29,683 nt of DNA from positions 1 through 29,683 of IMG/VR virus record IMGVR_UViG_3300005095_000171; one strand, given 5' to 3'. This stretch comes from a virus. Shown here one piece after another: positions 1,861 through 29,625 of the stretch; position 1 is the stretch's first letter; every line of letters begins with the position of its first letter. The notes beneath the pieces were generated by a model. The model made no database searches. It was not told the DNA's origin and was given only the letters and a program-made list of their open reading frames with translations. A program made the position numbers and the translations under genes.

Positions 1861-1994
1861 TAAAGCATCCCAACTCATGACATTGGGACTCGAATGTTTG
1901 TAGAGCAGTTTAAACCTGTGGAACATACCGAAATATGCTCCATCAGTCCAAACTATGAACCAATGAGCTTATGTACTCACTGGTTCAAATATGC
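1861..1994 (-). other. Structured leader / intergenic region upstream of the RNA polymerase
   Basis: This short gap between the 227-aa gene and the polymerase contains three inverted repeats readable as hairpins in the leftward transcript: GAACCAGTGAG/CTCATTGGTTC (arms 1976-1986 and 1957-1967, 10 of 11 paired), GGAGCATA/TATGTTCC around a TTTCGG loop (1920-1941, one G-U), and CCCAA/TTGGG (1869-1887). No 18-bp promoter-like element is present, so the polymerase is probably read from upstream. Function is unknown; RNA processing, translational control or attenuation are possible. Confidence 0.5.
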
Positions 1995-2678
1995 CTAGAA
2001 GAAGACTTTGTCTAATGCATCTTTAGGGAGAGGTTTCTCCCCATTAATTCTCCTCTTTGCTTCTAAGATGAGGTTGCTTGGTATATCCAACAATATATTG
2101 TTGGACACCCTTATCAACTCCCTCAACCCATTCTCGAGGATCATAACCTCTAGGGTTTTGGGTTCCTGAGAAAACGATGCAAGGAACCCGAAGTTCCCTT
2201 CGTCTATATTAGACAAATCTTCGCTCAAGTATTGAACGCAGGCAAGTTGCCCTGCCTGCATGTGGAGAGAACTTCCAAACTCTTTCTTGGCTTTCGCCAA
2301 AGCTCTAGATAATTTAAGTTCCATAACATCTTCCCTCACCTGAGGAAACTTTTGGATTAAGTCGAGTTTTAACTCTAGCAATTTATCCAATTTGGGTTTT
2401 AAACCCAAGGCCATATTTTGTATGGCAAGTTGCTGCTCGGTTGTCAGCTTGGCGGTCAGAACCGCGCCCAACTGGACGTCGTCCAGCGACTTGAAAAACT
2501 CTGGCGTATTTTCTATTCTCTCTGGAATAGAGTCTTTAAATATTCTGGAGATCGCCTTTGCAGACAACCCAAGTTCGTTGACCAGAACTCCAAACTCTGA
2601 TCCAATCACTGCTCGCTTTTTAGCTTCAGATGGGTTAGAGGTGCTTGCTGAGTTAGTTCCGAAAGTAATTGTTGCCAT
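1995..2678 (-). CDS. Hypothetical protein, 227 aa
   Basis: The start ATG at 2678 is preceded by AAAGGA with 6-bp spacing. I do not recognise the family. The protein is mostly predicted alpha-helical, with a charged Leu/Lys-rich stretch (about residues 95-140, for example LDKLLELKLDL) that could form a coiled coil. There is no signal peptide or membrane segment and no Cys-rich motif. It lies between two non-coding regulatory stretches and is the gene just upstream of the RNA polymerase. Two copies of the 18-bp promoter-like element (2791-2808 and 3008-3025) point into it. The position suggests an early, non-structural gene, possibly a transcription or replication accessory, but nothing in the sequence proves this. 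Confidence 0.75.
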   Translation of the reverse strand: MATITFGTNSASTSNPSEAKKRAVIGSEFGVLVNELGLSAKAISRIFKDSIPERIENTPEFFKSLDDVQLGAVLTAKLTTEQQLAIQNMALGLKPKLDKLLELKLDLIQKFPQVREDVMELKLSRALAKAKKEFGSSLHMQAGQLACVQYLSEDLSNIDEGNFGFLASFSQEPKTLEVMILENGLRELIRVSNNILLDIPSNLILEAKRRINGEKPLPKDALDKVFF

Positions 2679-2790
2679 GTTATATCCTTTGTTATTGATT
2701 GTATCAAGATCACTGGATCTCGAAATCTACTCCACAATGACAGAGAGTAGACGAAGGTTAGCTCAAAGATGAGCAACAGCAGGTTGATAC

Positions 2791-2808: not shown

Positions 2809-2939
2809 AAAGATTGAAGGTTAGTTCAATGTTAAATTTGAAAAGGTAATATTGATTTAGGAAAATTTAGGTCAAAATCAAAAGTCAAACTTACATTATA
2901 TATTGAAGATAAGTTTTGGATTATTTGATGTTTGACAAA

Positions 2940-3010
2940 TTGGGTTTACGCAAAGCCCGAAACTGTGGGATTTGAACGGCATTAGAGTGCATTGGTTCAA
3001 GTAAACCCAA
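2940..3010 (-). ncRNA. Three-way-junction-like structured leader RNA
   Basis: A perfect 10-bp inverted repeat (TTGGGTTTAC at 2940-2949, GTAAACCCAA at 3001-3010) encloses two inner inverted repeats: TTGAAC/GTTCAA with an inner GCA/TGC pairing (2972-3000) and CAAAGCCC/GGGATTTG (about 2950-2974, 7 of 8 paired, slightly overlapping the other helix). In the leftward transcript this forms a closing stem with two arms. It begins immediately after the promoter-like element at 3008-3025, so it would be the very 5' end of that transcript. It is not a tRNA: there is no CCA, no anticodon arm and no T arm. Its function may be RNA stability or a cis-regulatory element. Confidence 0.5.
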
Positions 3011-3025
3011 TAGTACAGATATCAA
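3008..3025 (-). promoter_or_regulatory. 18-bp promoter-like element, copy 2 (15 of 18)
   Basis: Reads TTGATATCTGTACTATTG leftward; it differs at three positions from the two identical copies at 2791-2808 and 3801-3818. The next bases are GG, so a transcript would begin GGG and enter the structured leader at 2940-3010 at once. It points toward the 227-aa gene and the RNA polymerase. Confidence 0.45.
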
Positions 3026-3291
3026 GAAAGTTGAGTCTGTCGCACTAAACAACATTTAGTCTGCAGTACATAAGGCAAGCAGTGTGTGAGGTGACATGTT
3101 GCGCAAGACCAGCCAGAACCAACTGGACAGACGTGCGCGTGAGTGTGACGTGTACTGCGTGATACATACTGAGTGGAGTGCGTGCTTGACTGAGTATGCT
3201 TGGTGTGCTTGTGTGTGCTTTGGAGGACTGCATTGGTTCTGGTGTGCTTGCGGGAGTTTGAATGCGACTTCCCTTGACCCATTATCGATGG

Positions 3292-3818: not shown

Positions 3819-4199
3819 TAACTGTGATGTGTTCCTTGTTCTTGTCCATGCTGCATGATGCTGTATGGCTTTGTATACTTGTGTGCGTTGGTTGGTTCTC
3901 GTATGTCTGTGTGTCTGCTGTGTGTGCGGAGTATTCCTTTGTGTATGGCTGGTGTGTGTGCTTGGTTCTGGTGTGTATGAGGATGTTGCCTTGTGTGTGT
4001 CTGGTTGTGTGCGTATGCTTGTGCCTGCTGCGTGTATGTTGCTGTATGCCTGTGTGCATGAGTGTGCATGCTTGCTGTTGTTGTGTGCATGCTGTTGCTG
4101 TGCTTGTTTGCAGCATACGGGGGGTATGTTTGCAGGTTTTTGGATTTTGTTTTGCGCATCTACACTTGTCCCCCCGGGGTTTACCAGAACCAGTTTAGG

Positions 4200-4328
4200 G
4201 TATATACTACAGGTCTGGACATGGGTAGATAGGTATATACTACATTGTATATACTACAGGTAGATAGACAGGTAGATAAACAGACAGGTCTTGACAGACA
4301 GACAGATAGATAAACAGACAGATAGAGA
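4200..4328. repeat. Short tandem and interspersed repeats before the late operon
   Basis: GTATATACTACA occurs three times (4200-4211, 4233-4244, 4247-4258). Next comes a GATA/GACA-type repeat tract (about 4256-4328) with units such as GATAGATAAACAGACAG. The tract is purine-rich with no coding potential. It ends about 15 bp before the AT-rich promoter zone. Possible roles are iteron-like binding sites, DNA bending or an origin. Confidence 0.65.
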
Positions 4329-4343
4329 ACTGGACTGAGCCAC

Positions 4344-4968: not shown

Positions 4969-4995
4969 AAACATTTGTTAAATAAGGAGATGAAA

Positions 4996-5787
4996 ATGAA
5001 CACAAAATTAAAAATAAGAAAAATGCTTCCAAGAGGGACAAGTGTCGCAGTAAGTGATAGGGCTGCAGAGATATTTGAGAATCTAGAAAATGACACAGGA
5101 ATTGTTCAAGAATACATGGAGGAGATGGTCTCTAGGAACATAAACATTGTTACGGGGAAAGGAAATCTCAGCATAGAGCGATATCTCGATGCAATTAAAT
5201 ATGTGTCATTAAAGAAGAGAATGTCTAATTTTGAGGCATGGAAGAAAACATTCCCAGATAGATACAAGAGAATGGTAGACAAAGGGCACGATGACAAGAC
5301 AATCTCTGCATCTGTAGCGGCATACAACACTAACTGGTTCATAGTAGAGATAGAAGCACAGATGATTCTAGATTTCTCAATATACTACCATTGGGCCAGA
5401 CATGAAGCAATGATGAAGAATATTGACTTAATGAGAGGTATTGCTGCGCCAACTCAGGTTCCAAGAAAAATAAAAGATCCAGATACTGGAAAAATGGTAA
5501 TAGTTAGAGATGAAGATGGTGAACCAATATATGATGAGATACGACCAATGGTTTCGGCAACAGTTCAGCAAGTTGCAGCAGCCAAAATACTCGACATAAC
5601 AGCTCCACCTGAAGAGAAAAATATAACACTAAAACTAGGAATGTCAGACGAGGCTGTTGAGGCTCAAAAAGAGACATCTGATGCAATGAGAGCATTAGCC
5701 GAGCAGATGAGAGAGGCACTAGAAAATGGAGCATCAATAGAGGATGTGCAGGTTATAGGGCATGTATTGGAGAGTAGAGATGAGTAG
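4996..5787 (+). CDS. Probable terminase small subunit
   Basis: 263 aa from the ATG at 4996, six bases after GGAG; two in-frame ATGs upstream (4966, 4990) are too far from or too close to the ribosome site. No family motif is visible. The protein is predicted helical, with an N-terminal part rich in short helices and a C-terminal acidic helix (LAEQMREALENGASIEDVQ). A short DPDTGKMVIVRDEDGEPIYD loop lies near residues 165-185. Place is the main evidence: it precedes the large terminase, separated only by a homing endonuclease, and phages normally pair these two. It would then recognise the packaging start on the DNA. It could also be another DNA-binding or virion protein. Confidence 0.45.
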   Translation: MNTKLKIRKMLPRGTSVAVSDRAAEIFENLENDTGIVQEYMEEMVSRNINIVTGKGNLSIERYLDAIKYVSLKKRMSNFEAWKKTFPDRYKRMVDKGHDDKTISASVAAYNTNWFIVEIEAQMILDFSIYYHWARHEAMMKNIDLMRGIAAPTQVPRKIKDPDTGKMVIVRDEDGEPIYDEIRPMVSATVQQVAAAKILDITAPPEEKNITLKLGMSDEAVEAQKETSDAMRALAEQMREALENGASIEDVQVIGHVLESRDE

Positions 5788-5841
5788 TGTGCTTTACTTA
5801 ATTAGAGACAGACATGATCACTGGTTCACAAGGATTACGTT

Positions 5842-5940: not shown

Positions 5941-6950
5941 AAAAGAAAAAAATGTTTAGTGTAGGACATAGAGTAAATAGGTTGTCATACATTGAGGAAG
6001 ACATAGATATGTCAACAAAGCGAAAAAGACGTTTTGTAAAGCTTTTGTGCGACTGCGGAAATACGAAATCAATATACTGTTATCATTGGACATCAGGAAA
6101 AACAAAGTCGTGTGGATGCCTAGGAAAAGAAGCATGCTCATTAATGGCAAGGAACAGGAGCACAAATAAACTCAGAGATAAAGACAGGGATGAGATGGTT
6201 ATAATGTGGAAAGATGGGCTATCTACTGGTGAGATAGCAGATAAATTTAAAGTTACTAGCTCAAGTGTGTTAAGTGCTCTAAGGACAAGGGGGTACGATA
6301 CGGACGGAAGGGTTCGTGATAATGGAATGATATCCAATCATAATGCTTTTGATACACAAACAGAGGAAGCAGATTACTGGGGAGGTTATATAGCATGTGA
6401 CGGATACATATCGAGAAAAGGACAGATTTCGCTTACATCGAAAGACTATGAACATATAGTAAAATTTAAATCGTTTGTAGGATCAAAAAACAAAATACTT
6501 GTTGACGGCAGGAATGGATCAACATCATTTACGTTGTCAATAACATCAAAAAAAATATTAGATGTGCTATTGAAAAAATATGGATTACATAACAACAAAA
6601 CATACACATACAGTGTTCCTATTTTGGTATCCAACAATACTGCATTCTGGAGAGGATGCGTTGATGCGGATGGCTGGTTCTCAAAGCAAGAGATAGGATT
6701 GGCGGGAACGCTTGATAAATGTGAGAAATTTATGTCGTTTGTACAAAGCGAAATAGGCATAAAAATGAGATTGAAAAAAAAGAAACTTACGCATATCAAT
6801 GGGTATTCTTATGCTGCAATATCAACAAGACAAAGTGACATTTTAAGAATATTGAACATGTTGTATGATAATGCAAGAATATTCCTAAGTAGAAAATATG
6901 AAAAGTATATTACAATAACCAAGCACAAAGGTGAGCATTATGATATATAA
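5937..6950 (+). CDS. Free-standing LAGLIDADG homing endonuclease with zinc-finger and HTH domains
   Basis: 337 aa from the ATG at 5937, six bases after GGAG. Three parts are visible. First is an N-terminal Cys4 module (C38, C40, C59, C61 in LLCDCG and SCGCLG), of the kind seen in phage HNH/AP2-type endonucleases. Second is a helix-turn-helix (about 86-120, GLSTGEIADKFKVTSSSV). Third are two LAGLIDADG motifs, YWGGYIACDGYI (catalytic D155) and FWRGCVDADGWF (D245). It probably cuts a specific site in phage DNA lacking the gene and spreads by repair. It lies between the probable small terminase and the large terminase and overlaps the latter by 11 bp. The terminase reading frame itself is not interrupted, so this is not an intein. 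Family assignment is firm; target is unknown. Confidence 0.88.
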   Translation: MKKKKMFSVGHRVNRLSYIEEDIDMSTKRKRRFVKLLCDCGNTKSIYCYHWTSGKTKSCGCLGKEACSLMARNRSTNKLRDKDRDEMVIMWKDGLSTGEIADKFKVTSSSVLSALRTRGYDTDGRVRDNGMISNHNAFDTQTEEADYWGGYIACDGYISRKGQISLTSKDYEHIVKFKSFVGSKNKILVDGRNGSTSFTLSITSKKILDVLLKKYGLHNNKTYTYSVPILVSNNTAFWRGCVDADGWFSKQEIGLAGTLDKCEKFMSFVQSEIGIKMRLKKKKLTHINGYSYAAISTRQSDILRILNMLYDNARIFLSRKYEKYITITKHKGEHYDI

Positions 6951-8847
6951 AGATGTTATTCCTAGATCAAAAGAAGAGATGCGGCACGCCATAAACACTG
7001 GGTATATTATACCTGCATTCAAAGACAAAGATGAGATAACCGTTGAGATGCTACTAGACTATGTAGACTTAAAATTAGATTGGTATACGCCGTCGGTAAA
7101 CGCAATCATGTTTATTTCGTTTATTCGTTTGTGCATAGGAGAAGAGCCAGAAAACCTAAACCCAAAAGCTCATTACTTTTTTGTTGACTGCATGTTTCAG
7201 TCAGAGGAGGTTAGGCCATACTATCAAGTAAGAAATATGGACTTTGATACGCTAAAAGGGAATACGCTGATATTGTCAACTAGGGAATTTTCAAAATCAA
7301 CGATTCTTGCATACATGATTTTGTACATGGCTGATCAAGGAGAGATGCCAGGATTTGGAAAAGTTAACTTTGGCATGTATGTGTCTGACAGAATGGACGG
7401 TAACGTTAAGACAACAATGAGAACGATAGAGGATCTCTATCTTGGATCAAAATACCTGCAAAGCAGGTTTGAGTGGACTCACTTCACTGATGCAGCAGTC
7501 GAGATGATACGAAAGCCGAGAACCAAGCAAGAAATAAAAGCATACAATGACCACATGTCAAAGAAAGGCGCAAGAGAAGATGGCGTCCCTGGTAGAATGA
7601 AGCGAAGATTTAAGGTGCAAGGTCTAGGGTCATCTGGTGGTAGGGGATCAAGATCTGGACTAGACAGACCACAGTTTGCAATCTTCGACGACATGGTAGC
7701 AAATGAAAAGGATGCATATTCAAAGGCTATGCTTGCAGCTATTGATAGTACTATTGAAGCAGACGTTGGTTCATCGCTATCTGGAGAGGGTCACTTCAAA
7801 GTGCTAATTGGGACAGCGTATCACACAGGAGATCCTGTATATAAAAGAGTAACAGAGGGAACATATTTACCTGTTGTATTTCCAAAGGCCGAAGTACAGC
7901 CACATGGAGATATATATGATGAAAAAACAGGAAAGCTTATAAAGCCTGCAATGACAAAAGAAAAATTTGTTTCAGTATGGCCAGATAGACATACATTTGA
8001 GAAGCAAAGAAAAGAGTATGAAATTGCAGAAAGAGCCGCAAAAAGAGGAAATACTAACAAGCTAAAAACACTAGATCAAGAGTACTATGTTAGGGTAACT
8101 TCTGAGCACGAAAGACTAATACAGGATAAGCATATACGGTGGGTCGACATGCAGAAAATAAAGGATAATGCTCAACTGTATACATGGTACGTGACAACAG
8201 ACTACACAACAACAGCAAATAAAGGGTCAGACTTGAGTCCTCAGATATTATGGGCTGTAGATTGGAATGATAAATGGTATCTTGTTGACATCATTGCTAG
8301 AAAGCAAACAATACAAGAACAATATGGTTCTACATTCAAGTTCACTAGAAAGGCAAAAGGATGGGGGGCATATATTGTTGAGGTTGGTGTCGAGATAGAC
8401 GGACAACAAGTTTTGCACCTAAACGGTTTACAGAGATTCTATGACGACAATGGAGACACGCTGATATTTGCAAGGCAGAAGCCTGTTCCAGGAAAGACAG
8501 TCACATGGGATGGAATAAAATCAAAAGGTAGTGGAGATAAGCTGTGGAGACTTCACATGGTTGCAGAGAAGTTTTATGAAGGAAAAATTTTTTTCAACAA
8601 CGAGTTAAAAGACTATAATCAGGATATGGCAGAGCTATTAAATGAGCTAAAAATGACTACAGGAACAGAAATTAAAGCAAAACATGATGATGCGCTAGAT
8701 GCATTAAGTCAGATGGGGCTAATAGACATATTGATCCCACAAAAGCCTGTCAAAGAGCAAATGCGATATAATAATGTAACATACGACCCTGTCTACATGT
8801 CTCATATTGACAGCAGTGAAGAGGAGGGTTACGGATATTACAATTAA
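6940..8847 (+). CDS. terL: Terminase large subunit (packaging ATPase/nuclease)
   Basis: 635 aa from the ATG at 6940; AGGTGAG lies just upstream (a GTG at 6931 is the alternative). The ATPase half has a Walker A-like loop STREFSKST (113-121, lacking the usual GK), Walker B FAIFDD (D250, D251) and the coupling motif LIGTAYH (289-295). The nuclease half has D421 in VTTDYTTT, E481 in IVEVGVE and the C-terminal HDDALDALSQ (D583, D584), a RNase H-like catalytic set. Length suits the family. It pumps DNA into procapsids through the portal and cuts concatemers. It overlaps the upstream homing endonuclease. The portal is unusually far downstream (27193). Confidence 0.93.
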   Translation: MIYKDVIPRSKEEMRHAINTGYIIPAFKDKDEITVEMLLDYVDLKLDWYTPSVNAIMFISFIRLCIGEEPENLNPKAHYFFVDCMFQSEEVRPYYQVRNMDFDTLKGNTLILSTREFSKSTILAYMILYMADQGEMPGFGKVNFGMYVSDRMDGNVKTTMRTIEDLYLGSKYLQSRFEWTHFTDAAVEMIRKPRTKQEIKAYNDHMSKKGAREDGVPGRMKRRFKVQGLGSSGGRGSRSGLDRPQFAIFDDMVANEKDAYSKAMLAAIDSTIEADVGSSLSGEGHFKVLIGTAYHTGDPVYKRVTEGTYLPVVFPKAEVQPHGDIYDEKTGKLIKPAMTKEKFVSVWPDRHTFEKQRKEYEIAERAAKRGNTNKLKTLDQEYYVRVTSEHERLIQDKHIRWVDMQKIKDNAQLYTWYVTTDYTTTANKGSDLSPQILWAVDWNDKWYLVDIIARKQTIQEQYGSTFKFTRKAKGWGAYIVEVGVEIDGQQVLHLNGLQRFYDDNGDTLIFARQKPVPGKTVTWDGIKSKGSGDKLWRLHMVAEKFYEGKIFFNNELKDYNQDMAELLNELKMTTGTEIKAKHDDALDALSQMGLIDILIPQKPVKEQMRYNNVTYDPVYMSHIDSSEEEGYGYYN

Positions 8848-9311: not shown

Positions 9312-11051
9312 ATGACAAGTAAGGCAAGAGATTTTTTTTACTACACAGGAATAGACAACACATGTGATGTCATATACTATATCAGTGAAACAACTGAAGA
9401 CTGCAATGAGAAAAAAGAGTTGCTTATCGATGACAGATATGATATAGTAGATGGAGAAATAAGTGTATCAATAGCAAAAAGCGAGATACCGCAAGATATA
9501 GGAAATGATGCATCAGTTATTGTTTTGTATGATGGAGACGGAGTTGTATCTGAAGTGCTGTATGAGGACAGCAATATTAGCTTCAGCATAGCAGGTGCAG
9601 GAACAATAAGTGAGGCATTCAACGAGTATGTAAATGAAAAAATATCAATCGTTATTGTTAGTGGCGACAAGACTGTTGGGTGCAGAGTTGAACTTGAATA
9701 CACAGTTGACCCAACGCTACTAAAAATTGTATACGACGACAGTAGCAATGAGCTAAAAATAGTGTATGATGATGATAACGACAGCATTGATGTAGATATT
9801 CTTGACATTGGACCAATCGCTTGGTTCGTAGATTACACAGAAGATAGCACAGGAGCAAATAGTGTATCGCTAGATGTCACAAACACAAGACTAACAAAGA
9901 TAACAGACAATTACTCAGCAAACATATACGCAATGGTTGGAGACGTAAAAATAGAGTACGGAGAGTGGATAATTCCTCAAAATGCGTATGAGCTAGATGC
10001 TTATCTGGATTACGTTATAAATGGTGACTTCATATATGCTAACATATTTGCTTCAGCAGAGAGCGCTCCAGAAGATATGAATCTTACAGTGTTTATTGAT
10101 GGAGAAAAATATGACAGTGACAATTTTATGCTAACAGATGAAATGGTTGGGAAAAGTGTATGTGCAGTTGTACACAAAGATAACCTTGATGAGTTTGATG
10201 AAGAAAAATATGAACTTTACGAAATAAGCAAGTGCATAGCTGTTGATGATGAAACGTTCGATACTGTGTATGGAGACGATGTTCTAAATAGACTATTAGA
10301 CGCAGTAGAAAGTGATAATACAATAGTCAACACAATGTTCCCTGGAATAAAACAGATTCCTATAGATATGGTAGACATAAATAACTATGATATATTTTTA
10401 AACAAGATTGTTGTTGAGACCGACATGGAGGAGTACTGCTATACGGTTGACTACATTAGATCATCAACGCCAACAAAGGTCGGAGAAATACTGTATTTCA
10501 ACAATAAGTTTCATATAGTTAGAGAAGATATGTCTGTAGAAGAGATTGTTGACCTATCAAGATTTATAGAGAAAGAAGTTGTTACGGTAAAAGATGAATA
10601 CTATTATGCAATCTTCACAAGTCAAATGTTTGATAATTTCTTTGAGAGCAACACAAATCTTGTCACAGACAGCGACGGATGGATTACTCAACAGAGTGAT
10701 GATGACGAATTTTCTGTTGAAGCAATATTTGACAAAGACATTACAAATGTTCAGATAGAGCTAAAATATACAAAGCAAACAAACCCAAGAACATCAAAGT
10801 TTTTAATCTATCTAATGACACTAGACGGAGAACATGTGTCAAAATACGGATTCGAACGACAAACTGATGGAACAATGGCGTTTTATGACGAAGATAGAAA
10901 CACAATAATGATGAACCAGGATGATTTTTACACTCAGATGACAATATATCCAACAGCTACACAAAAAGCAGAAATGATAAAAATTGTTGGTGTTGGCATG
11001 AGTATAGATAAGATAATGTTTAAAAATTTGGTTATAGGAATAGAAAAATGA
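9312..11051 (+). CDS. Large beta-rich virion protein, 579 aa
   Basis: AGGAG precedes the ATG. Not recognised. It is predicted to be mainly beta strands in Asp-rich loops, such as an internal near-repeat LKIVYDDSSN / LKIVYDDDND (about 137-157). Net charge is very acidic. The last 150 residues, with strand patterns like FSVEAIFDKDITNVQIELKY and TSKFLIYLM, resemble a jelly-roll. It is the first of four adjacent large, acidic, secretion-signal-free proteins and ends in an ATGA overlap with the next. A structural role in tail or fibre is likely from context. Confidence 0.75.
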   Translation: MTSKARDFFYYTGIDNTCDVIYYISETTEDCNEKKELLIDDRYDIVDGEISVSIAKSEIPQDIGNDASVIVLYDGDGVVSEVLYEDSNISFSIAGAGTISEAFNEYVNEKISIVIVSGDKTVGCRVELEYTVDPTLLKIVYDDSSNELKIVYDDDNDSIDVDILDIGPIAWFVDYTEDSTGANSVSLDVTNTRLTKITDNYSANIYAMVGDVKIEYGEWIIPQNAYELDAYLDYVINGDFIYANIFASAESAPEDMNLTVFIDGEKYDSDNFMLTDEMVGKSVCAVVHKDNLDEFDEEKYELYEISKCIAVDDETFDTVYGDDVLNRLLDAVESDNTIVNTMFPGIKQIPIDMVDINNYDIFLNKIVVETDMEEYCYTVDYIRSSTPTKVGEILYFNNKFHIVREDMSVEEIVDLSRFIEKEVVTVKDEYYYAIFTSQMFDNFFESNTNLVTDSDGWITQQSDDDEFSVEAIFDKDITNVQIELKYTKQTNPRTSKFLIYLMTLDGEHVSKYGFERQTDGTMAFYDEDRNTIMMNQDDFYTQMTIYPTATQKAEMIKIVGVGMSIDKIMFKNLVIGIEK

Positions 11052-12862
11052 TAAAAAAAAGAGATATATCTGGAGCATATAATGAATTTGTGTACAACAA
11101 TGAGCAAGGAAAACTAACACTGTACGCAAATGATGGATCAGCTGGAAGCGTTGCTATAATAGGCAATGCAGACTTTAGAACGGCAACAGGAAACAAGCCG
11201 ACAGTCGTAAACTACAAGGACAAGAATCACCCTGACTATACAGTGTATCAAGACATAGAGACAGGTGACGTGTTTATGAAGATAAATGGAGTATACGAGC
11301 TCATATACAAAAATGATATATACAGGAACTTTTTTAGAATTCCATACTTTAAGTATCAGTACTACGAAGACTCTGTGTACTATAAAGAAAACGTTATCGT
11401 TGGTCATGACAGGCTAATGTTCGCAACATACGGTCAAAGTGACGAGCAGCATACGCCAAGAGATGAAAAAGCTAACATGCCACAAGACGAATATGATGGC
11501 ACGGTTGTTTCGCCATCTAAGCTAACAGAGATACTTGGAATGGAATTCAGCAACGAGTACGACACAATCGTAATATCAACAACTCAAGGTGTATATCACA
11601 TGAGGCTGTTTGATGAAGACGGAGAGACAAATTACACGATACATGAGGAGGAGAGGTACACAGAACTGGTTCACGAGAAGAGAGTGATAATTGCAGGTCT
11701 TATAGCGCATGGAGATGGAAGACTAGTGAGAATATACGATCTAGACAGAGAGATAACCGATAAGGTGCTAGAGTTAGATTTTGACTTCTCGTCAATAGCT
11801 GTGTCAAACAAGCTGCTTGTTGTGTGCGGAAAGGATGGAGATATTATTCTTGTTGACCCGTCAACTTTAGACGAAAAGAAAAGAGTAAATATAGAGATGA
11901 AAATAGAATACGCAACAGCATCAGACCAGGATATAGCGATAAGAGTAGATTCTGGGGATGTATTATTTTTGCATCCTGAAACGCTTGAGATAACAGACTC
12001 GTCATTTACGCAGTATGATAAGCCATTTGCGATAACAAACAAAAACAAACTATACGGAGCAATGTCTGATGGAAACATATTCGAGTTTATATACAGAGAC
12101 ACAAGATGGGACCTTATAACTGTAGATGATATTTTTGCGCTAAGCGAAAAGTGTTTGTCAACATACACAAAAGAGTTAACACACATAAATATTGTAGACA
12201 ATAGCGAATATGACTACAAACTCATAGATTTTGAGCCAGTTGCTTTTTGTTTTGCATGTCCAGGAAAGCTTTTTATAGCATCAGACGATATAAGAGGAAT
12301 AGTTCATCAGTATGACATAAGTGACGGTATTTTTGACCAAAAGTATGTAGGAAGTTTCCAGACAGGAAAAATCGTAACTGCAATATCATATTTCAAGGAA
12401 GAGCTGCTTGTGTTTTGCGGAACAACATGCTACGCATACGATTGCGACACACTTGAACTAATAGAGATTATTGATATGCAAAACATTCTTGAGGACTATG
12501 GAGTGATATCATCATCTGTAAGATGGGATTCAATATATCTACTAACTTCAAACGGAAAGATATATTCATTTTTTGAGATAAGAAAAGATCCGTATGACAT
12601 AATAGTTCTTGAAATGTATACATCAAAAAGCAATATAGCTGTAATAGACTACAATAGGGTATACGTGTCGTATCCATATAGTGTAGACACATACATATAC
12701 GAATTTTCACTAAAAGATGGATCGCTGTTGCAAAAGACAGCACTAGACAGAGGACTTGAGGTTGATATAGAATTATATTTTGATTCACTATACGTAATGG
12801 ACCTTGAAGGAAGATATTTGCTTACAAAATATCAAACTAGAGAAATTTTAACACTAGGATAA
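11048..12862 (+). CDS. Beta-propeller-like virion protein, 604 aa
   Basis: Starts within the stop of the preceding gene (ATGA), so translation is probably coupled. From about residue 170 the sequence shows recurrent four-strand blades of the kind found in propellers, for example RLVRIYDLDREITDKVLELD, KDGDIILVDPSTLDEKKRV, VDSGDVLFLHPETLEI, GKIVTAISYFKEELLVFCG and YAYDCDTLELIEIID. The first 100 residues form a separate domain (tyrosine-rich, RNFFRIPYFKYQYYEDSVYY). It is probably a tail or spike component that contacts a host ligand. The exact family is unknown. Confidence 0.72.
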   Translation: MIKKRDISGAYNEFVYNNEQGKLTLYANDGSAGSVAIIGNADFRTATGNKPTVVNYKDKNHPDYTVYQDIETGDVFMKINGVYELIYKNDIYRNFFRIPYFKYQYYEDSVYYKENVIVGHDRLMFATYGQSDEQHTPRDEKANMPQDEYDGTVVSPSKLTEILGMEFSNEYDTIVISTTQGVYHMRLFDEDGETNYTIHEEERYTELVHEKRVIIAGLIAHGDGRLVRIYDLDREITDKVLELDFDFSSIAVSNKLLVVCGKDGDIILVDPSTLDEKKRVNIEMKIEYATASDQDIAIRVDSGDVLFLHPETLEITDSSFTQYDKPFAITNKNKLYGAMSDGNIFEFIYRDTRWDLITVDDIFALSEKCLSTYTKELTHINIVDNSEYDYKLIDFEPVAFCFACPGKLFIASDDIRGIVHQYDISDGIFDQKYVGSFQTGKIVTAISYFKEELLVFCGTTCYAYDCDTLELIEIIDMQNILEDYGVISSSVRWDSIYLLTSNGKIYSFFEIRKDPYDIIVLEMYTSKSNIAVIDYNRVYVSYPYSVDTYIYEFSLKDGSLLQKTALDRGLEVDIELYFDSLYVMDLEGRYLLTKYQTREILTLG

Positions 12863-20388: not shown

Positions 20389-20784
20389 ATGTCATGGAGA
20401 AGAGGTTATAATAGAAGCACATTCGTAGGACCTAAGCCATTCTCATTTAAAGTTCCAGACCAACCTGAGGATGAAGGCGAATACATAGTATCTGTTGATG
20501 ACGAAGGAAATGTGACATTTGTCGAGGCAAACAATCTTGAACTAGGTGAAACAGCAGATACTGCGTACTATGGTGACAAAGGTAAAATTGCCTACGATCA
20601 TTCGCAGGAAGTTGGAACGAATCCTCACGAAGTAACAAAAGACGACATTGGACTAAGTGAGGTAACAAATGACAAGCAGATACCATACTCAGAGAAGGGT
20701 GAACCAAACGGTGTTGCAACGTTGGATGATGAAGGCGTTGTTCCAGACGAGCAGATAGACGATATCGATGGTGGAACATTCTAA
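20389..20784 (+). CDS. Short tail-fibre-like protein ending in DGGTF, 131 aa
   Basis: The ATG at 20389 follows GGAG and is one base after the previous stop; the longer upstream frame has no ribosome site. The sequence NPHEVTKDDIGLSEVTND and GVATLDDEGVVPDEQI is typical of phage fibre shaft repeats (H-x-V/I-T-x-x-D-I-G-L-S-x-V). The protein ends IDGGTF, the same as the next fibre gene. From here to 21578 glycine is mostly GGT rather than GGA, unlike neighbouring genes. It is probably a trimeric fibre segment. Confidence 0.75.
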   Translation: MSWRRGYNRSTFVGPKPFSFKVPDQPEDEGEYIVSVDDEGNVTFVEANNLELGETADTAYYGDKGKIAYDHSQEVGTNPHEVTKDDIGLSEVTNDKQIPYSEKGEPNGVATLDDEGVVPDEQIDDIDGGTF

Positions 20785-20825: not shown

Positions 20826-21578
20826 ATGATTAAAACTATTCAGATTAAACGAGGTGACTTAGCAGCATTGCCATCAGAGGCTCTAGAAGGAGAATTGCTA
20901 TTTGCCAAAGACGTAAATCAGGTATATATTGGTAAGGGTGACGGAGTTGAACCAGTCCAGATTGGTGGTGATTTCAGCTCAGTGGTTCAAGTCGACTCAA
21001 CAGGTAAAATTGATCCAGCAGTTCTTCCTGCCTTGGCTATCAGTGAAACCTATGTTGTAGATAGCGAAACAGCACAGCTCGAGCAAGATGTTCAAGAAGG
21101 TGACATTGCTGTTCGTACAGATGAGAACAAATCGTACATCAATGTAACAGGTAACAATGACTCTATGGACGATTGGCAAGAACTGCTTACTCCAACAGAC
21201 TCTGTATTGAGCGTTAACGGTAAGACTGGTGCAGTTGTTCTTGATACTGATGACATTGAAGAAGGTGATAACAACCTGTACTACACAGATGACCGTGCAA
21301 TTGAAGCAGCAAAAACACTTGATATCAAAGACTTGAGCGATACACCTGATGATGACCCTGATACAGGAGTAGATACACGTTCCGTACTTGTATATGAGCC
21401 GGAAGCAGGTAAATGGGTATATGATGAAGTGGACGATATTGGGCGAACAGACTTTATTGACTTAGACGATACACCAGACAGCTATGATGGTGCAGCAGGA
21501 TACTCGTTACGAGTCAATTCTGATGGAACAGCCGTAGAGTTCGTTGATGACTCTGTTGTTGATGGTGGAACCTTTTAA
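20826..21578 (+). CDS. Tail fibre protein, 250 aa, ending in DGGTF
   Basis: AAGGA precedes the ATG. N-terminal IQIKRGDLAALPSEALEGEL and VNQVYIGKGDG match the small N-terminal fibre domain of many phages (IQxRRG...L.x.GE......xxIGDG). The centre has SVNGKTGAVVLDTDDI and NLYYTDDRA, both standard fibre motifs, and the C-terminus is VVDGGTF. CGT and GGT codons are used freely here while the rest of the late region uses AGA and GGA, a sign of separate origin or of selection for high expression. It probably forms a trimeric fibre. Confidence 0.82.
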   Translation: MIKTIQIKRGDLAALPSEALEGELLFAKDVNQVYIGKGDGVEPVQIGGDFSSVVQVDSTGKIDPAVLPALAISETYVVDSETAQLEQDVQEGDIAVRTDENKSYINVTGNNDSMDDWQELLTPTDSVLSVNGKTGAVVLDTDDIEEGDNNLYYTDDRAIEAAKTLDIKDLSDTPDDDPDTGVDTRSVLVYEPEAGKWVYDEVDDIGRTDFIDLDDTPDSYDGAAGYSLRVNSDGTAVEFVDDSVVDGGTF

Positions 21579-21633: not shown

Positions 21634-22578
21634 ATGGCCATTAAAAAAATACTTCAACTGCGCTCGTCAGAGTCAGGAAAGGTTCCGTCCTCTCTTGAGG
21701 ATGGCGAGATAGCAGTAAATACCGCAGATGGAAAAATATTTATAAACAAAATAGATGATGATGGAAACATTGTCGTAACATCACTTCCTACATTTGATGA
21801 TATAAACTCTAGCATAGACCATACACACGACAACCTTGACCAACTCAACACAATAGTTGATGGTCCAGAAGATGGAATGCTACAGTCAGGAGACCATATT
21901 ATTCAGATGACAAGAAGATTTGATGACAGAGCATCGCTAGCGGACTATTCGCCTTCATTTAGAGGAGAGTTGACGTATCTTATGAGCAACGATGTTTTCT
22001 GCTGGTTCGACTATAGTCAGAGCAAATGGATAATGCTTGGAACTGGAGATATAGTAACAAAGCCAGGATACGGAATTGGACCATCAGGAACATACTCTAA
22101 TGGATGGGAAGATGAAGATGATATTGACCTTCACTTTGAATCTGATTTATGGGGATCAACAACAAACGGAACAGATGCAGGAAAATGGAACAGATACGAT
22201 GCTCCTACTCCGTCAAGTGATACTGGTACAGCAGGGCCGTATGAGGGCTCAAACATGGTTTATGCAGAGGTATCATCAGGTGGAGATAGCGAATACTTTA
22301 GACTAGAATTTAAATATTTTGCAAAACTAACAAGAGTAGCATTCTATGTTCAACTTGAAGGATCAAATGCAGGTACATTCGAACTGAAAACATACAACGA
22401 AGAAGATGGAGAAACTACTCACTACAGCATAACAGGAGACCAGGGATCAGCATGGATATCTGTTGATCTAGATTTAACTGGTTCAAATGCAGAAGCGATA
22501 TACTTTGACTACCATGATGCATCTGGGTATCAAGGTGACTTATGTCTTGATGCAATAACAATTGAAAGCGAGGATTAA
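21634..22578 (+). CDS. Receptor-binding/tail fibre protein 1 with MAM-like C-terminal domain, 314 aa
   Basis: Start ATG 21634, its ribosome site inside a hairpin. N-terminal LQLRSSESGKVPSSLEDGEI and VNTADGKIFI form the same small attachment domain as other fibre genes here. HTHDNLDQLNTI is a short shaft element, and KWIMLGTGD-type strands follow. The C-terminal about 160 residues (from GTYSNGWEDEDD, through TPSSDTGTAGP and MVYAEVSSG, to DLCLDAITIESED) resemble MAM-type jelly rolls, which often bind glycans or proteins. Paralogues lie at 23377 and 24800. It is followed by a probable chaperone. Confidence 0.8.
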   Translation: MAIKKILQLRSSESGKVPSSLEDGEIAVNTADGKIFINKIDDDGNIVVTSLPTFDDINSSIDHTHDNLDQLNTIVDGPEDGMLQSGDHIIQMTRRFDDRASLADYSPSFRGELTYLMSNDVFCWFDYSQSKWIMLGTGDIVTKPGYGIGPSGTYSNGWEDEDDIDLHFESDLWGSTTNGTDAGKWNRYDAPTPSSDTGTAGPYEGSNMVYAEVSSGGDSEYFRLEFKYFAKLTRVAFYVQLEGSNAGTFELKTYNEEDGETTHYSITGDQGSAWISVDLDLTGSNAEAIYFDYHDASGYQGDLCLDAITIESED

Positions 22579-23071: not shown

Positions 23072-23365
23072 ATGGCAACAAAAACTATAAAATTAAAAAG
23101 AAGTACATCTCCAGGGGCTAAGCCGTCTGGCTTAGAAGATGGAGAGGTTGCAGTAAATATTACTGATGGAAGATTTTATACAAACAGACAAAACGACACC
23201 GGCTGGTTCACAAATGACAGGCATATAATATCGTCCCACATGTCAACAATTACAGAGGACGTTGTTATTGAGGACGGTTTTAACGCAATGTCTGTTGGAC
23301 CAATTACGGTTGAAGACTCTGCTACAGTATCCGTTCCAAGCGACTCTGTATGGCTAGTATTGTAA
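23072..23365 (+). CDS. Mini tail fibre protein, 97 aa
   Basis: Very short fibre: an N-terminal attachment domain (IKLKRSTSPGAKPSGLEDGE, VNITDGRFYTNR) joined to a C-terminal tip (VIEDGFNAMSVGPITVEDSA then VSVPSDSVWLVL), a pattern seen at the C-terminus of many marine phage fibres. It contains one copy of the 11-mer CTGGTTCACAA. It lies between chaperone 1 and receptor-binding protein 2. It may be a small accessory fibre or the remnant of a larger one. Confidence 0.72.
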   Translation: MATKTIKLKRSTSPGAKPSGLEDGEVAVNITDGRFYTNRQNDTGWFTNDRHIISSHMSTITEDVVIEDGFNAMSVGPITVEDSATVSVPSDSVWLVL

Positions 23366-23376: not shown

Positions 23377-24315
23377 ATGGCAGTAGTAACTAACACACTG
23401 GTTCATTATAAGAACCAAGATAAGGGTATAGATTTAGACAAGATAGTATTCATTGACGATGACGGAAATGCGTCAAACATAAAAGGAGATAATGTTCCTG
23501 TAACCTCGCATGTGCACAATGATCATGCAGCGTTAAATATGATAGGACTAGACAGCAATGGAAACATGATGGCTGATGGTGCATACATGATGTTTCTTGT
23601 TCAAAAAAATGGAAGAAATGAAATAGCAAACTATGTTCCTTCGAGCCCATTTGAGATGATTTTTGATACAGGCTCAAGCAGATATGCAATATATGACTAC
23701 CAGGTCAAAAAGTGGAAGTACATAGGAAGTAAAGGGTATCAATACATAAATGAAACAGGAAAAGGAAATGGACTTCCAGGAACATTTGTTCAGGACTGGG
23801 AAGACCCAGAAAACATAATTGGCATCTGTGAACCAATCGTATATATAGGCAACGAAAAAAGAAAAGGATGGGGAGACGCCTATGACGGAAAAAGAGGTGG
23901 GCTATGGAATAGACATAGTGATACAACTCCATCGTGGGGCACAGGTAGGCAAGAGGCAAAAAATGGAAAATGGTACATATATACAGAGATGTCTGGATCA
24001 GATGATGATGGGAACACTAATTACAAAAAGGATCTTAGACTATACTATGACAATTTTTGCAACCTAGACTCAATAAGCTTCTACTACAACTACTATGGTG
24101 ATGGTACTGGTGTATTTGAGGTTATAGCTGTTGCGTCAAATGGTGTAGAGAGTGTATTGTTTTCTGATTCAACTGGTTCACAATTGGACTGGAAATTTAT
24201 AGAAATAAACACGGCAGGAAAAGACATAGAGAAATTTTATTTCAGAAACAGCGGATGCACAACGTCATACTCAGATCTATGCCTTGACGTAATAACAATA
24301 AACAGCTCTGAATAG
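23377..24315 (+). CDS. Receptor-binding/tail fibre protein 2 with MAM-like domain, 312 aa
   Basis: AAAGGAG precedes the ATG. Its N-terminal part differs from protein 1 (VTNTLVHYKNQDKGIDLDKI), but the mid part KWKYIGSKGYQYINETGKGN and the C-terminal domain align: PGTFVQDWEDPENI, TTPSWGTGRQ, WYIYTEMSGSD and the end DLCLDVITINSSE. Same MAM-like jelly-roll. An inverted pair TGGTTC-N7-GAACCA lies just after the start (23399-23417 region). Probably alternative receptor specificity. Confidence 0.8.
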   Translation: MAVVTNTLVHYKNQDKGIDLDKIVFIDDDGNASNIKGDNVPVTSHVHNDHAALNMIGLDSNGNMMADGAYMMFLVQKNGRNEIANYVPSSPFEMIFDTGSSRYAIYDYQVKKWKYIGSKGYQYINETGKGNGLPGTFVQDWEDPENIIGICEPIVYIGNEKRKGWGDAYDGKRGGLWNRHSDTTPSWGTGRQEAKNGKWYIYTEMSGSDDDGNTNYKKDLRLYYDNFCNLDSISFYYNYYGDGTGVFEVIAVASNGVESVLFSDSTGSQLDWKFIEINTAGKDIEKFYFRNSGCTTSYSDLCLDVITINSSE

Positions 24316-24799: not shown

Positions 24800-25825
24800 A
24801 TGGCAATTAAAACAGATAAGCTAATTTCAATAGTTGATGATTCGCTAACAGTAGATATTTCTGCGTTAACAAAAACTGCTGACGGCAAACTTTATTCACT
24901 TGATGGGACAGAAATACAAGTTTCATCTGGAGATGAACATACGCACGACAACAAAGACTTGCTTGACTCACTATATGTAAATACAGAGACAGGAACATAC
25001 AATAATCCACTTATGTACAATGATGGGTTCTTTGATAGACAGTGCACAGTAACAGGTGTTGTGTCGCTTGACGATTCGCCTGTTGCTCAAGCTGCAGACA
25101 TAATGAGAACGTCTGCTGGAGAGACATTCCTGTTTGATAAATCAGTTCTTCCAACATGGAGAACAAACTCTAATTCATACTATGGAAAAAGAGCATACAA
25201 GTGGAGAAATGTATTTAGCGGAGAGTTTTTGAATGGGCAAGGGTTCGGAACTGGTGTTCCAGGAACATATATCCAAGATTTCAGCAATCCAGCAAATAAT
25301 CTTGACGACTTCTTCATGTGTTATAGAACAAAAATAATGGGTGCAGACGTTGATTTTGCCGGTAACAAATGGAACGGATCAGTTGATGGAAGCTGGAACG
25401 TTATTGAGGGACCTACACCAACAAGTGGAACAGGCGAGCTGTATCCTCAAACAGGAAGAGCTTATGTATATGCAGAGCTGAGCGGAGTTGATGATGAAGG
25501 GGATACATATTTTCCTTATGCAAGCTATGTTCTTGCAACAACAAACTTTAGAGACATAACAGAGTTCAGCTTCACGTACAATTGGAAAGGATCTGGAACC
25601 AATCGAATAGCTGTATTGGCAGGAGACAAATATGATGTTGCAGAAGGCAATGACTCAAACGCAGACGTATTGTGGGAATCAACAACAGAGGCAACAGCAT
25701 GGACAGATGTAACGATACCTATAGACGCTGGTTCAGGATATGAGTGTATAGGAATAGTGTCTTATGAGGCTGACAGCGATGTTGCTGACTTGTGTATTGA
25801 CAGAATTAAGATTGTAAGCGAATAA
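24800..25825 (+). CDS. Receptor-binding/tail fibre protein 3 with MAM-like domain, 341 aa
   Basis: GGATAG lies before the ATG at 24800. The N-terminus (MAIKTDKLISIVDDSLTVDI) is a diverged version of the attachment domain; HTHDNKDLLDSL is a shaft element. The middle (GQGFGTGVPGTYIQDFSNP) and C-terminal domain (PTPTSGTGELYPQTGRAYVY, AELSGVDDEGD, DLCIDRIKIVSE) align with the other two MAM-like proteins. No chaperone follows it; the amidase gene comes next. Confidence 0.8.
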   Translation: MAIKTDKLISIVDDSLTVDISALTKTADGKLYSLDGTEIQVSSGDEHTHDNKDLLDSLYVNTETGTYNNPLMYNDGFFDRQCTVTGVVSLDDSPVAQAADIMRTSAGETFLFDKSVLPTWRTNSNSYYGKRAYKWRNVFSGEFLNGQGFGTGVPGTYIQDFSNPANNLDDFFMCYRTKIMGADVDFAGNKWNGSVDGSWNVIEGPTPTSGTGELYPQTGRAYVYAELSGVDDEGDTYFPYASYVLATTNFRDITEFSFTYNWKGSGTNRIAVLAGDKYDVAEGNDSNADVLWESTTEATAWTDVTIPIDAGSGYECIGIVSYEADSDVADLCIDRIKIVSE

Positions 25826-26757: not shown

Positions 26758-26896
26758 AGGTTCATTAAGCAATAATACCTTTAGTGTCCAGCGATCAATG
26801 ACAAACTTCATACATCTCCTATAAACACTATCTCCTTGAAAATTAAACTTCATCATCGCTGGATACTGTTATAATAACTAAAAAAAGGATGGATAG
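26758..26896 (+). other. Structured intergenic region with promoter
   Basis: Non-coding, 139 bp, between holin and the next gene. It holds two 13-bp arms, AGTGTCCAGCGAT (26783-26795) and ATCGCTGGATACT (26855-26867), complementary at 12 of 13 with the exception a possible G-U pair. The 59-nt loop includes two anti-Shine-Dalgarno-like words (ATCTCCT and ATCTCCTT). An extended -10, TGTTATAAT (26867-26875), overlaps the right arm and lies 21 bp before the next start. A structured small RNA, or a promoter under structural control, are both possible. Confidence 0.5.
26867..26875 (+). promoter_or_regulatory. Candidate extended -10 promoter
   Basis: TGTTATAAT is a perfect TGn plus TATAAT, 21 bp before the ATG of the 99-aa gene that leads into the portal gene. 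No clear -35 is present. It could provide separate transcription of the head genes. Confidence 0.45.
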
Positions 26897-27196
26897 ATGA
26901 CAGACGAAGTGTATGGGTACATTCCAGAAGAATTATATCCAGGTCAAAGCAAAGAAATCGTCATAACTGTTCCAGACAACTATTCTAGCGATACACACAC
27001 AATATCACTATTAATAGAGAGTGCATACACAAGGTGTGTTATAATGTCTGGTATAAAGGTTGATAGCGACACATATATTGTTTCGCCAGACTTGTCAAGT
27101 AAATTACTTGGTGAATACTATTTTGTTTTTACTATAGTAGAGAATGAGAACAAGTTCACATCAATAGACAAAGTTTACGTAAAGGTTAAGAGATGA
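26897..27196 (+). CDS. Small beta-sandwich protein, 99 aa
   Basis: AAAAAAAGGA before the ATG. The pattern YPGQSKEIVITVPDN, YIVSPDLSSKLLGEYYFVFT and KVYVKVKR suggests an Ig-like or BppU-N-like small beta domain. No enzyme motif. It shares an ATGA overlap with the portal gene, so the two are translationally coupled; a virion or assembly role is likely. Confidence 0.65.
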   Translation: MTDEVYGYIPEELYPGQSKEIVITVPDNYSSDTHTISLLIESAYTRCVIMSGIKVDSDTYIVSPDLSSKLLGEYYFVFTIVENENKFTSIDKVYVKVKR

Positions 27197-29625
27197 GTGG
27201 TGAATGGAAAAATAAACCAAGTATATCTGATTTAAAAGCAGATTTTGACTCAGCAAATGCATCGCATTTAAGGCAAATAGATAGATTGGATCTATACAAT
27301 GAAATCTATGACGAAACAACTCCGAACGAACAAAAAACGTTTCTAAAGAGATTAAGGTCAACATACAAAAGTAGACTGTTCAAGAAAATGATGGAGTGGG
27401 TTGTTCCCAACATAGAGAATCCAGTGTTATCAAAAAAGACACTTTTTACGTTGTCGCCTAAAAGCAATTCTGCAATAACTGTGCTAGATAAAAACGCAAG
27501 CATATTGAACCATCAATGGAACAAGGAAATTGGTAAAGTTGAGCTTGTAAATAAAGCTGTAAGAAACTTTGCAATAGAGGGTACATGCGTGCTTAAAGTT
27601 GGATGGAAAACTGAAACAAAAATAGAAACAGTTGTTCAGCAGCAAACGGTTTTTACATCAGATATATCAGAGATTAACAGTATATTGGAGAAGGCGTCGG
27701 TGAACCAGGAGCTATATACAAAGCTTAAGCAGCAGTATGAAGCAACAGGAATGCTACCATCTGGTTCTATCGACGTTGAATGCGAAGTTGAAACCGTTAT
27801 CGAAAATAGGCCATATTTAACAGTAAGAGATAACAGAGCAATAATTGTTGATCCGTCAGCAAAGGGAGTTCTTGACAATGTTAGATTTGTTATTGATATA
27901 CAAGAGACAGATTACTCAACTCTTTCAAAAAACGATTCATATTTTAATCTTGATTATGTGAAAGAGTATATAAAAAACAAATCAGGAGTTGGGTCAAATG
28001 ATTATAATCTTGCAACATATACAGACTACGACGAAGATGATTTGTTTGAGTTTTCTGATCTTGCAAGAAAGAAAATAACAATATATGAATACTGGGGATA
28101 CTGGGATATAAATGGCGATAACAACCTGGTTCCAATTGTTGCATCATGGGTAGGAAATAAGCTTATTAGGCTTGAAGAGAATCCATATCCTCACCAAAAG
28201 ATTCCTTATGTGTTTGCGCAGTTCAATCCTCTGAAAGACGAGATATGGGGAGAGCCGTACGCAACACTATTGGAGAACGATCAAAAATCTCTAACTGCTA
28301 CATATAGAGCAATGGAAGATATTACTAACGAGAATGCTGTTGGGCAAGAGTTCATAGACGATAGCATATTTAAAACACCAATACAGAAAGAAAACTATGA
28401 GAAAGGTAAAACAGTATACGTAAACAGAGGAACGGACCTAAGCAAAGCTATTATGAGAAAGTCTGTTGAGCCAGTGCCTAAGGTACTGTTTGATATGAAG
28501 GGAATATATACTGAACACTCAACTCTACTTACAGGAATAGAGGACATGGATGGAGGAGCTGGTTCAAGAATGACACAGTCTGTTACAGGTGCTCCAATGA
28601 AAGTAGATGCAAAGACAAACAGAGAGATGGAAGTCCTCAGAAGGTTTTTGACAATGCTTGAAAACGCAGGAAACCTAATACTGTCGATGAACAAAGAGTA
28701 CTTGCTTGATACAGCGATATACGACACTGGTTCAGGATACCAAGAGATAAATGATGTAGACACATTAAATGACGACTTCTCTGTATCTGTTGACGTATCA
28801 ACTCCAACAATAGACAATGATAAAGCGTCAAAGATAATGTTCCTAATGCACAACAATGGCGCAAATATGTCTCCACAACTTGCAGCACTGCATTATGCAA
28901 AAACAGCTGAGCTATGGAATATGCCAGATCTTGCAAAAACAGTTCTTGATGAAGCAAATAGACCACCATCAGAAGAGCAGGCACTCGCACAGCAACTAGA
29001 ACTAGAAAGACTAAAACTAGAAAACAAGAAGGCACAAATAGAGTTACTTGCAAAAATAAAAGAAATGGAATTCAAAGACGCAAAAATAGAAGAGATAAAA
29101 GAATCTATCATTGCTGGTTCACAAGAAGCAAGAGTTATCAGAGACAAATCTCAAGCCGAACTTGCACTTGCACAAGCAGATAAGATGGATGCGCAAGTCA
29201 GACTATTTAATCAAGAGTTTGAGCTTGTTGAAAGCGGAACGAAAAGAGAATGGGAAAAAGAAGATAATGAATTCCATCACCTAGCAAACCTTGAGAGAGA
29301 GGAAGTGAGAACCAAGAGAGAGCAGGAGAATATTAAGCTTAAAGAAGAAAAGAAGAATAAAGATGACATGACTACAAAAGAGAAAAATCTTGAGTACATA
29401 CGAAGGGGGACTCTTGAGAACGACACCTACGATGCAGCGGACGATATATTCAGGAACATACTCGATAAAAACAGTATAGACACTGAGCAGTACAAAAAGG
29501 ATCTTCCGTCAATGCAGCGAATGCCAAGTGTCAGACAGCCAATGAAAGATCCAGACGTAAAAAGCACTATTGCACCAGAAGACATGATTGGTGAAGATAA
29601 GCCAATAGACGATACAATAAAATAA
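27193..29625 (+). CDS. Portal protein (P22/N4-like), 810 aa
   Basis: Starts in the ATGA overlap; AAGG upstream. The core fits podovirus portals: an N-terminal helical part (HLRQIDRLDLYNEIYDE), VRNFAIEGTCVLKVGW, YWGYWDINGDNN, HQKIPYVFAQFNPLKDEIWG, EPYATLLENDQKSLTATYRA and TLLTGIEDMDGG. The last about 200 residues are a long charged helical region with many E, K and L (LELERLKLENKKAQIELLAK), like the helical barrel of P22 portal. It forms the dodecameric DNA gate on which the terminase docks. It contains one 11-mer CTGGTTCACAA. It lies 18 kb from the terminase, an unusual separation. Confidence 0.85.
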   Translation: MSGEWKNKPSISDLKADFDSANASHLRQIDRLDLYNEIYDETTPNEQKTFLKRLRSTYKSRLFKKMMEWVVPNIENPVLSKKTLFTLSPKSNSAITVLDKNASILNHQWNKEIGKVELVNKAVRNFAIEGTCVLKVGWKTETKIETVVQQQTVFTSDISEINSILEKASVNQELYTKLKQQYEATGMLPSGSIDVECEVETVIENRPYLTVRDNRAIIVDPSAKGVLDNVRFVIDIQETDYSTLSKNDSYFNLDYVKEYIKNKSGVGSNDYNLATYTDYDEDDLFEFSDLARKKITIYEYWGYWDINGDNNLVPIVASWVGNKLIRLEENPYPHQKIPYVFAQFNPLKDEIWGEPYATLLENDQKSLTATYRAMEDITNENAVGQEFIDDSIFKTPIQKENYEKGKTVYVNRGTDLSKAIMRKSVEPVPKVLFDMKGIYTEHSTLLTGIEDMDGGAGSRMTQSVTGAPMKVDAKTNREMEVLRRFLTMLENAGNLILSMNKEYLLDTAIYDTGSGYQEINDVDTLNDDFSVSVDVSTPTIDNDKASKIMFLMHNNGANMSPQLAALHYAKTAELWNMPDLAKTVLDEANRPPSEEQALAQQLELERLKLENKKAQIELLAKIKEMEFKDAKIEEIKESIIAGSQEARVIRDKSQAELALAQADKMDAQVRLFNQEFELVESGTKREWEKEDNEFHHLANLEREEVRTKREQENIKLKEEKKNKDDMTTKEKNLEYIRRGTLENDTYDAADDIFRNILDKNSIDTEQYKKDLPSMQRMPSVRQPMKDPDVKSTIAPEDMIGEDKPIDDTIK

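Follow-up and report, generated by a model that had tools for sequence, protein, structure and literature searches.

Why should one short word recur dozens of times along a virus genome, within genes and between them? The question is raised by a linear fragment of about 30 kb, IMG/VR virus record IMGVR_UViG_3300005095_000171, positions 1 to 29,683 of which make up the whole stretch analysed here (29,683 bases, hereafter the window). An earlier note on this DNA had reported an over-represented word, YTGGTTCA(CAA), and about 54 copies of TGGTTC or its complement GAACCA; the enrichment stands, and the exact count is 58 copies (34 TGGTTC and 24 GAACCA). We propose, with a probability of roughly 0.7, that the word is a recognition and initiation site at which the phage's own helicase-primase of the archaeo-eukaryotic primase (AEP) type, gp43/phrog_2135, would make its lagging-strand starts. 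This reading, which comes from sequence comparison, is favored in part because the site of an AEP enzyme from phage NrS-1 shares the core of the word, with the enrichment of the T7 primase site GGTC serving as a yardstick.

The word was counted against sequences in which synonymous codons had been permuted within each gene, a procedure that keeps the proteins and the codon usage. Across 27 window genes, there are 49 coding copies of TGGTTC/GAACCA, a number that codon shuffling does not reproduce (17.2 +/- 3.6; z 8.8). YTGGTTCA occurs 27 times versus 4.9 expected (z 11), and the 11-mer CTGGTTCACAA occurs four times in coding DNA versus 0.14. The most over-represented strings in the window genes are the 6-mer TGGTTC, the 7-mer TGGTTCA, and the 8-mer CTGGTTCA. 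Since the excess is over synonymous shuffling, it reflects neither chance nor codon usage; the over-representation is real and acts at the DNA level.

The core hexamers extend from 1669 to 29314, and 27 of the 58 lie outside the YTGGTTCA octamers located below. Copies are found in all three frames, sense and antisense to genes, and between genes. The nine non-coding positions given in the earlier note are all exact, and these copies fall in about 2.1 kb of non-coding DNA, where the note had about 1.8 kb. Its five CTGGTTCACAA 11-mers, in different frames or none, are likewise found, all on the + strand: one is intergenic (5821..5831), and those at 18873..18883, 23203..23213, 24173..24183, and 29114..29124 comprise three in frame 2 and one in frame 0. 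The octamer TTGGTTCA lies on the + strand at 2992..2999 (intergenic), 7766..7773 (inside the terminase gene), 14457..14464, 15156..15163, and 19485..19492, and on the - strand at 1668..1675 (inside the gene at 59-1873, also on the - strand), 5520..5527, 15073..15080, 17950..17957, 20700..20707, and 23829..23836. The octamer CTGGTTCA lies on the + strand at 5334..5341 (inside the gene at 4966-5787), 11666..11673, 15923..15930, 22478..22485, 23398..23405, 25728..25735, 28559..28566, and 28727..28734, and on the - strand at 10912..10919, 13576..13583, 18847..18854, 20948..20955, and 27701..27708. An intergenic, hairpin-like inverted pair, TGAACCAATGAG-loop-CTCACTGGTTCA, occupies 1956..1987, with octamers at 1956 (-) and 1980 (+).

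Judged by its proteins, the window phage is a distant N4-like phage (Schitoviridae and relatives). The terminase large subunit gene (6931..8847, + strand) matches phrog_38 (E 3.8e-32), and its product has 30% identity to Schitoviridae terminases; the portal protein gene (27193..29625, + strand) matches SU10_portal, PF23899 (E 1.5e-71), with 28-29% identity to Schitoviridae portals. At 28-30% protein identity in these two proteins, the Schitoviridae are the nearest named relatives, and a megablast of the window against phages gave no match.

Relatives among viral contigs, found through the portal and the terminase, are enriched genome-wide. In these, a word-type oligomer is the dominant over-represented one, with the common core TGG[T/C]T. 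A 112-kb contig has CTGGTTCC 143 times versus 3.5 expected, and another relative has CTGGTACT 106 times versus 6.5; CTGGTTCT is the dialect of several relatives, GTGGTTCT of another, and CTGGTTCA of the window's closest kin. A word of this kind is absent from other relatives, about 90-120 kb in size. Of 20 cultured Schitoviridae, 17 have the word, N4 itself among them; in N4, TGGTTC is found 210 times versus 72 expected. N4, G7C, and ZC08 share the dialect CTGGTTC, and Axy04, ort11, Zuri, and Y38 share CTTGGTTC; TTGGCTT is found in Pa2, CTGG[CT]TT in CB4 and GADU21, CTTGGTT in JA-1, TGGTTCA in Vibrio phage 1.238, and, more weakly, CTTGGTTA in Vibrio phage 1.169.O. Three phages of P. aeruginosa have three dialects, and N4, from E. 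coli, shares one with ZC08, from P. aeruginosa. The dialect is thus independent of the host, which argues that the reader of the word is encoded by the phage and not by the host.

Several genomes add features of their own. Roseophage DSS3phi2 (L236, L256) has CTTTGG and CTGAGATC enriched about as much as TTGGTTC. In the metagenomic genome G004 (L096-L100), the word is lengthened to some 16 bp (CTCTGGTACT..TTGAT), with a threefold excess between genes (45 versus 15 expected). A search of genome contigs returned only the Caldisericia metagenome-assembled genome JAGLCW01, which has phage-like contigs; there, L159 and the small contigs C19, C22, C40, and C56 are word-dense and resemble pieces of an N4-like phage, and the larger contigs are not enriched.

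Word density is kept while positions turn over between homologous genes. The homologous genes of the window and one relative (L010) hold 13 and 10 words, respectively, with one in common; where nucleotide identity is 83%, the shared fraction is 67% for words and 45% for control hexamers. Words are mildly enriched between genes, in some cases as inverted pairs. They also have a common strand polarity: one map strand carries about 60% of the words in 26 of 26 genomes (1853 versus 1224 in total). The favored strand is always antiparallel to the early genes, and the bias holds in genes of both directions. Among the cultured phages, this bias reaches 78% over the first 5 kb (27:94) and lies mostly at 54-65% beyond 15 kb. 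The mean spacing of words per strand in these phages is 0.6-1.9 kb, and the metagenomic relatives have about one word per 430-770 bp. Okazaki fragments of T7 are about 1-6 kb (PMC12839067).

Which phage gene does the word follow? In a portal tree, the word-bearing lineages do not form one clade, a scatter accounted for by two natural recombinants. G016 joins structural genes of the word-plus type to a replication block of the word-minus type and has no word; G004 is the reverse, with word-minus-type structural genes and a word-plus replication block, and has the word. The word, then, follows the replication module and not the structural genes. The block includes the primase, a Sak4 annealase, a single-stranded DNA-binding protein (SSB), and a PD-(D/E)XK nuclease. 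Hidden Markov models (HMMs) of N4 core genes were scanned over all the cultured and metagenomic genomes. The word was not tracked by the DNA polymerase gp39, the exonuclease gp42, the helicase gp37 (RecD/Dda-like), RNAP1/2, rIIA/B, or gp25. In this comparison of core genes, the closest fit to the word is that of the gp43-type primase: in the tree of this primase (phrog_2135), word-bearing and wordless metagenomic genomes are split with full support. Several related long contigs also match an HMM of the virion RNA polymerase (vRNAP); the window does not extend to the region of the giant vRNAP and RNAP1/2.

The association extends to the catalytic residues of the AEP domain. The motifs hhhDhD and sxH are retained in every aligned word-bearing primase, from the cultured phages and four metagenomic genomes, the second motif having the forms TTKRH, TTKSH, and TTRSH, or ITKRH in Vibrio phage 1.169. 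In seven of seven wordless metagenomic genomes, the sxH histidine is replaced (TSDP, SKDP, SEDP, TSDN) or the AEP domain is missing. No DnaG-type primase that could act as a substitute was detected in the wordless phages with Toprim_2 or Zn_ribbon_DnaG. The assignment of the primase to the AEP type is based on these motifs, on the PriCT_1 domain carried by N4 gp43, and on an AlphaFold model (pLDDT 89.5), whose sole significant match in the PDB is the AEP domain of the cyanophage S-2L PrimPol (E 1.5e-4, TM 0.45). A sequence search of the PDB with the primase profile returned no relative, and scans with single primase sequences returned only their own contigs. One wordless genome with a defective AEP domain, G011 (L126-L131), is enriched in ACCGGT (60 versus 19), possibly another signal.

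Two profiles were then used to sample new primase loci among viral contigs: the first, built on AEP-intact primases, gave 69, and the second, built on the AEP-defective relatives, gave 14. The patterns of the first profile contain the AEP motifs, so the 69 loci are AEP-intact by construction, which tells against the primase reading; the word itself had no part in the selection. The word family makes up 18 of 2080 hexamers. A family hexamer is the most enriched in 25 of the 69 AEP-intact loci and among the top three in 43, versus top three in 0 of the 14 AEP-defective relatives (Fisher 9e-6; Mann-Whitney 1e-7). One locus of the defective set, L405, has an intact motif, and its exclusion changes nothing. 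In unrelated viral contigs, a family hexamer is among the top three in 0 of 46. Viral contigs were also scanned for the word hairpin, in search of unrelated carriers; among the 69 matches, only an already known N4-like contig is clearly enriched; the remaining contigs of that scan serve as a negative control.

Several further observations weigh against a primase site. A clear word is missing from Vibrio phages 1.026.O and VBP32 despite their intact AEP motifs, and Klebsiella phage Pylas has a weak word only. Because of these three phages, an intact gp43-type primase is not sufficient for the word; the exceptions limit the claim that it is sufficient, not the claim that it is required. The link between AEP loss and the word comes down, in essence, to a single deep branching of the primase tree together with two recombinants, and the primase is accompanied by Sak4, SSB, and the diverged PD-(D/E)XK nuclease. 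Among the cultured phages, dialect distance is not best correlated with primase distance; structural proteins give the highest correlation, over few taxa. The strand polarity peaks in the left 5-10 kb, a peak not accounted for by any simple fork model. Most known primase sites are shorter than the word. Finally, the window has no primase gene, so that for the window phage, the reading rests on its family.

What else might read the word? The main rival is a Chi-like recombination word, at which a phage exonuclease or recombinase (N4 gp42, Sak4, or helicases) would pause or switch, so that DNA ends are protected and the annealase is loaded. The earlier note had a recombination hotspot among its candidates, and this fits less well than a primase site. 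A Chi-like word would agree with the tracking of the replication-recombination module, with the CTGGT held in common with E. coli Chi, and with the uniform polarity, whose left-end maximum would suit an enzyme entering from the left. A PD-(D/E)XK nuclease, moreover, is found by blastp clustering in four of four word-plus and none of seven word-minus complete contigs. However, no single exonuclease family is present in all carriers: the gp42 type occurs in cultured word-plus phages and also in word-minus metagenomic genomes, and the word-plus metagenomic phages have only the diverged PD-(D/E)XK nuclease. The host's Chi is not the word, the bias is weak (60:40), and the same core is already read by a characterised AEP primase, that of NrS-1. 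We therefore regard a Chi-like role as unlikely. Somewhat less likely again is a site for another protein of the replication module, such as Sak4, SSB, a helicase, or an unrecognised DNA-binding protein acting, for example, in genome organisation or packaging. Any gene of the module is linked to the word, and the relatives of Sak4 and SSB do accompany the primase, but Sak4 HMM matches occur in three word-minus genomes too, neither Sak4 nor SSB is known as sequence-specific, and no link to loss of a catalytic motif was found for either.

The candidates outside the module fare worse. A word determined by the host (host Chi, an uptake sequence, or the site of a host protein) and imposed on its phages would suit word-bearing lineages that are scattered in the portal tree, and the intergenic inverted pairs recall the terminators formed by uptake sequences. 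It is highly improbable given the P. aeruginosa phages with their separate dialects, the dialect shared by N4 and ZC08 across hosts, and the restriction of word-dense DNA in the Caldisericia assembly to small phage-like contigs. We give an equally slim chance to an RNA-level signal in termination or RNA processing: some intergenic inverted pairs, including that at 1956-1987, resemble terminator hairpins, but most copies are single, intragenic, and in both orientations relative to transcription. An artefact of codon usage, protein motifs, or composition could have been suspected from common in-frame phrases such as ACT GGT TCA and GAA CCA. It is next to impossible, since the z of 8.8 remains with the proteins fixed and the word is found in all frames, on both strands, and in intergenic DNA, and the 46 unrelated viral contigs are without signal; a codon or protein origin is refuted by the synonymous shuffles. 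As to the kinds of signal listed in the earlier note, then, a signal in the DNA is upheld and binding by a phage protein is probable, while an uptake word and a methylation target find no support.

Other features of the window lie apart from this argument. A LAGLIDADG homing endonuclease gene (5925-6950) is directly upstream of, and overlaps, the terminase gene. Low-complexity G/T-rich stretches at 3020-3290 and 3820-4130 (TGTGTGC runs, TTGGTTCT) hold no convincing gene; they separate divergent gene blocks in the vicinity of the terminase and contain four words. Short degenerate tandem repeats (GTATATACTACA; AGACAGATAGATAAAC) at 4200-4330, also between divergent gene blocks, are possibly a control region. 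A long imperfect inverted repeat at 4890-4970 (AACAATATATGAGCTGACGC...GCGTCAGTGAAATATGTTGTT), right after the gene at 4406-4894, is probably a terminator. By synonymous shuffling, CATATG occurs 0 times in the window genes versus about 24 expected; G011 lacks CAATTG, GATATC, and TCTAGA (67-79 expected each), and another related genome, G008, lacks TCTAGA, CATATG, and AACGTT. The absence of these palindromes in the window and related contigs suggests restriction avoidance.

Returning to the AEP-type primase as the reader, we suggest the following scheme. The primase would bind 5'-[C/T]TGG[T/C]T[C/T/A]-3' (in the window, ACTGGTTCA) on the single-stranded lagging template and start a primer there, each lineage having a dialect that its own primase reads. 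The density would be sustained by selection for a sufficient number of starts on either strand, with single sites gained and lost by point mutation. The preferred lagging template would be the strand antiparallel to the early genes, from which net leftward forks are predicted. What the comparisons show is that the word is enriched, exists in dialects, turns over in position, has a common strand polarity, is linked to the replication module, and is associated with an intact AEP domain. We infer from this a primase that reads the word and primes there, in the window phage as well, whose primase gene would lie outside the fragment. It is tempting to go further and, with somewhat less confidence, to propose that in most N4-like phages the entire genome has been reshaped around a start word of 7-11 bp, specific to the lineage, for the phage's own AEP primase. 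Word and primase would co-evolve as dialects, forming a genome-wide primase code that is inherited with the replication module, lost on decay of the AEP domain, and visible even in N4.

Full-text searches of open-access PMC gave no paper joining N4-like phages with the word, and little published detail was found on lagging-strand starts in N4-type phages. If the proposal is true, a step of N4 replication becomes directly testable, in a classic system of E. coli, with one oligonucleotide and one protein, and primase specificity could be read straight from a genome sequence. Enzymes naturally paired with their site dialects would be at hand for studying DNA recognition by AEP primases, and word polarity would predict fork direction on the N4 map.

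How does the word compare with known systems? The T7 gp4 primase, a DnaG-type enzyme, has the sites (G/T)GGTC. In the same codon-based test, GGTC is found in T7 355 times versus 269 expected. T7 thus offers a short phage primase site that is moderately enriched beyond codon usage, although its site is shorter and its enrichment much weaker than that of the N4-like word. Chi (GCTGGTGG) is a signal for the host's RecBCD. It is likewise an over-represented, oriented, position-independent octamer with CTGGT in common, but carriers of the N4-like word have no common exonuclease, their sites are denser, and they have phage dialects. The DNA uptake sequences of Neisseriaceae and Pasteurellaceae also resemble the word, being dense, non-palindromic words of 8-12 bp on both strands, with dialects, an intergenic excess, and inverted pairs. 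Those sequences are read by a competence pilin of the host, whereas the N4-like word is phage-specific, tied to the replication module, and constant in its strand bias.

The earlier note knew of no described phage signal of this sequence, but one that resembles it has been described. The primase-polymerase of phage NrS-1 requires the template 5'-TTTGGTTA-3', also uses 5'-GTG-3', and starts just 5' of the site (PMC8718748); the 8-nt requirement is also reported in PMC7102993. Like the proposed reader, it is a phage enzyme of the AEP superfamily, encoded beside the phage's own helicase and SSB, and its 8-nt template word has the same TGGTT core and strand sense. NrS-1-like forms occur among the dialects described here, namely CTTGGTTA and GTGGTTCT. 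The NrS-1 genome has two copies of its site only, proposed as origins (PMC7102993), whereas the N4-like word is genome-wide, dense, and in lineage dialects, and the N4-like enzyme is a distinct helicase-primase, whose sequence has no detectable similarity to any solved structure.

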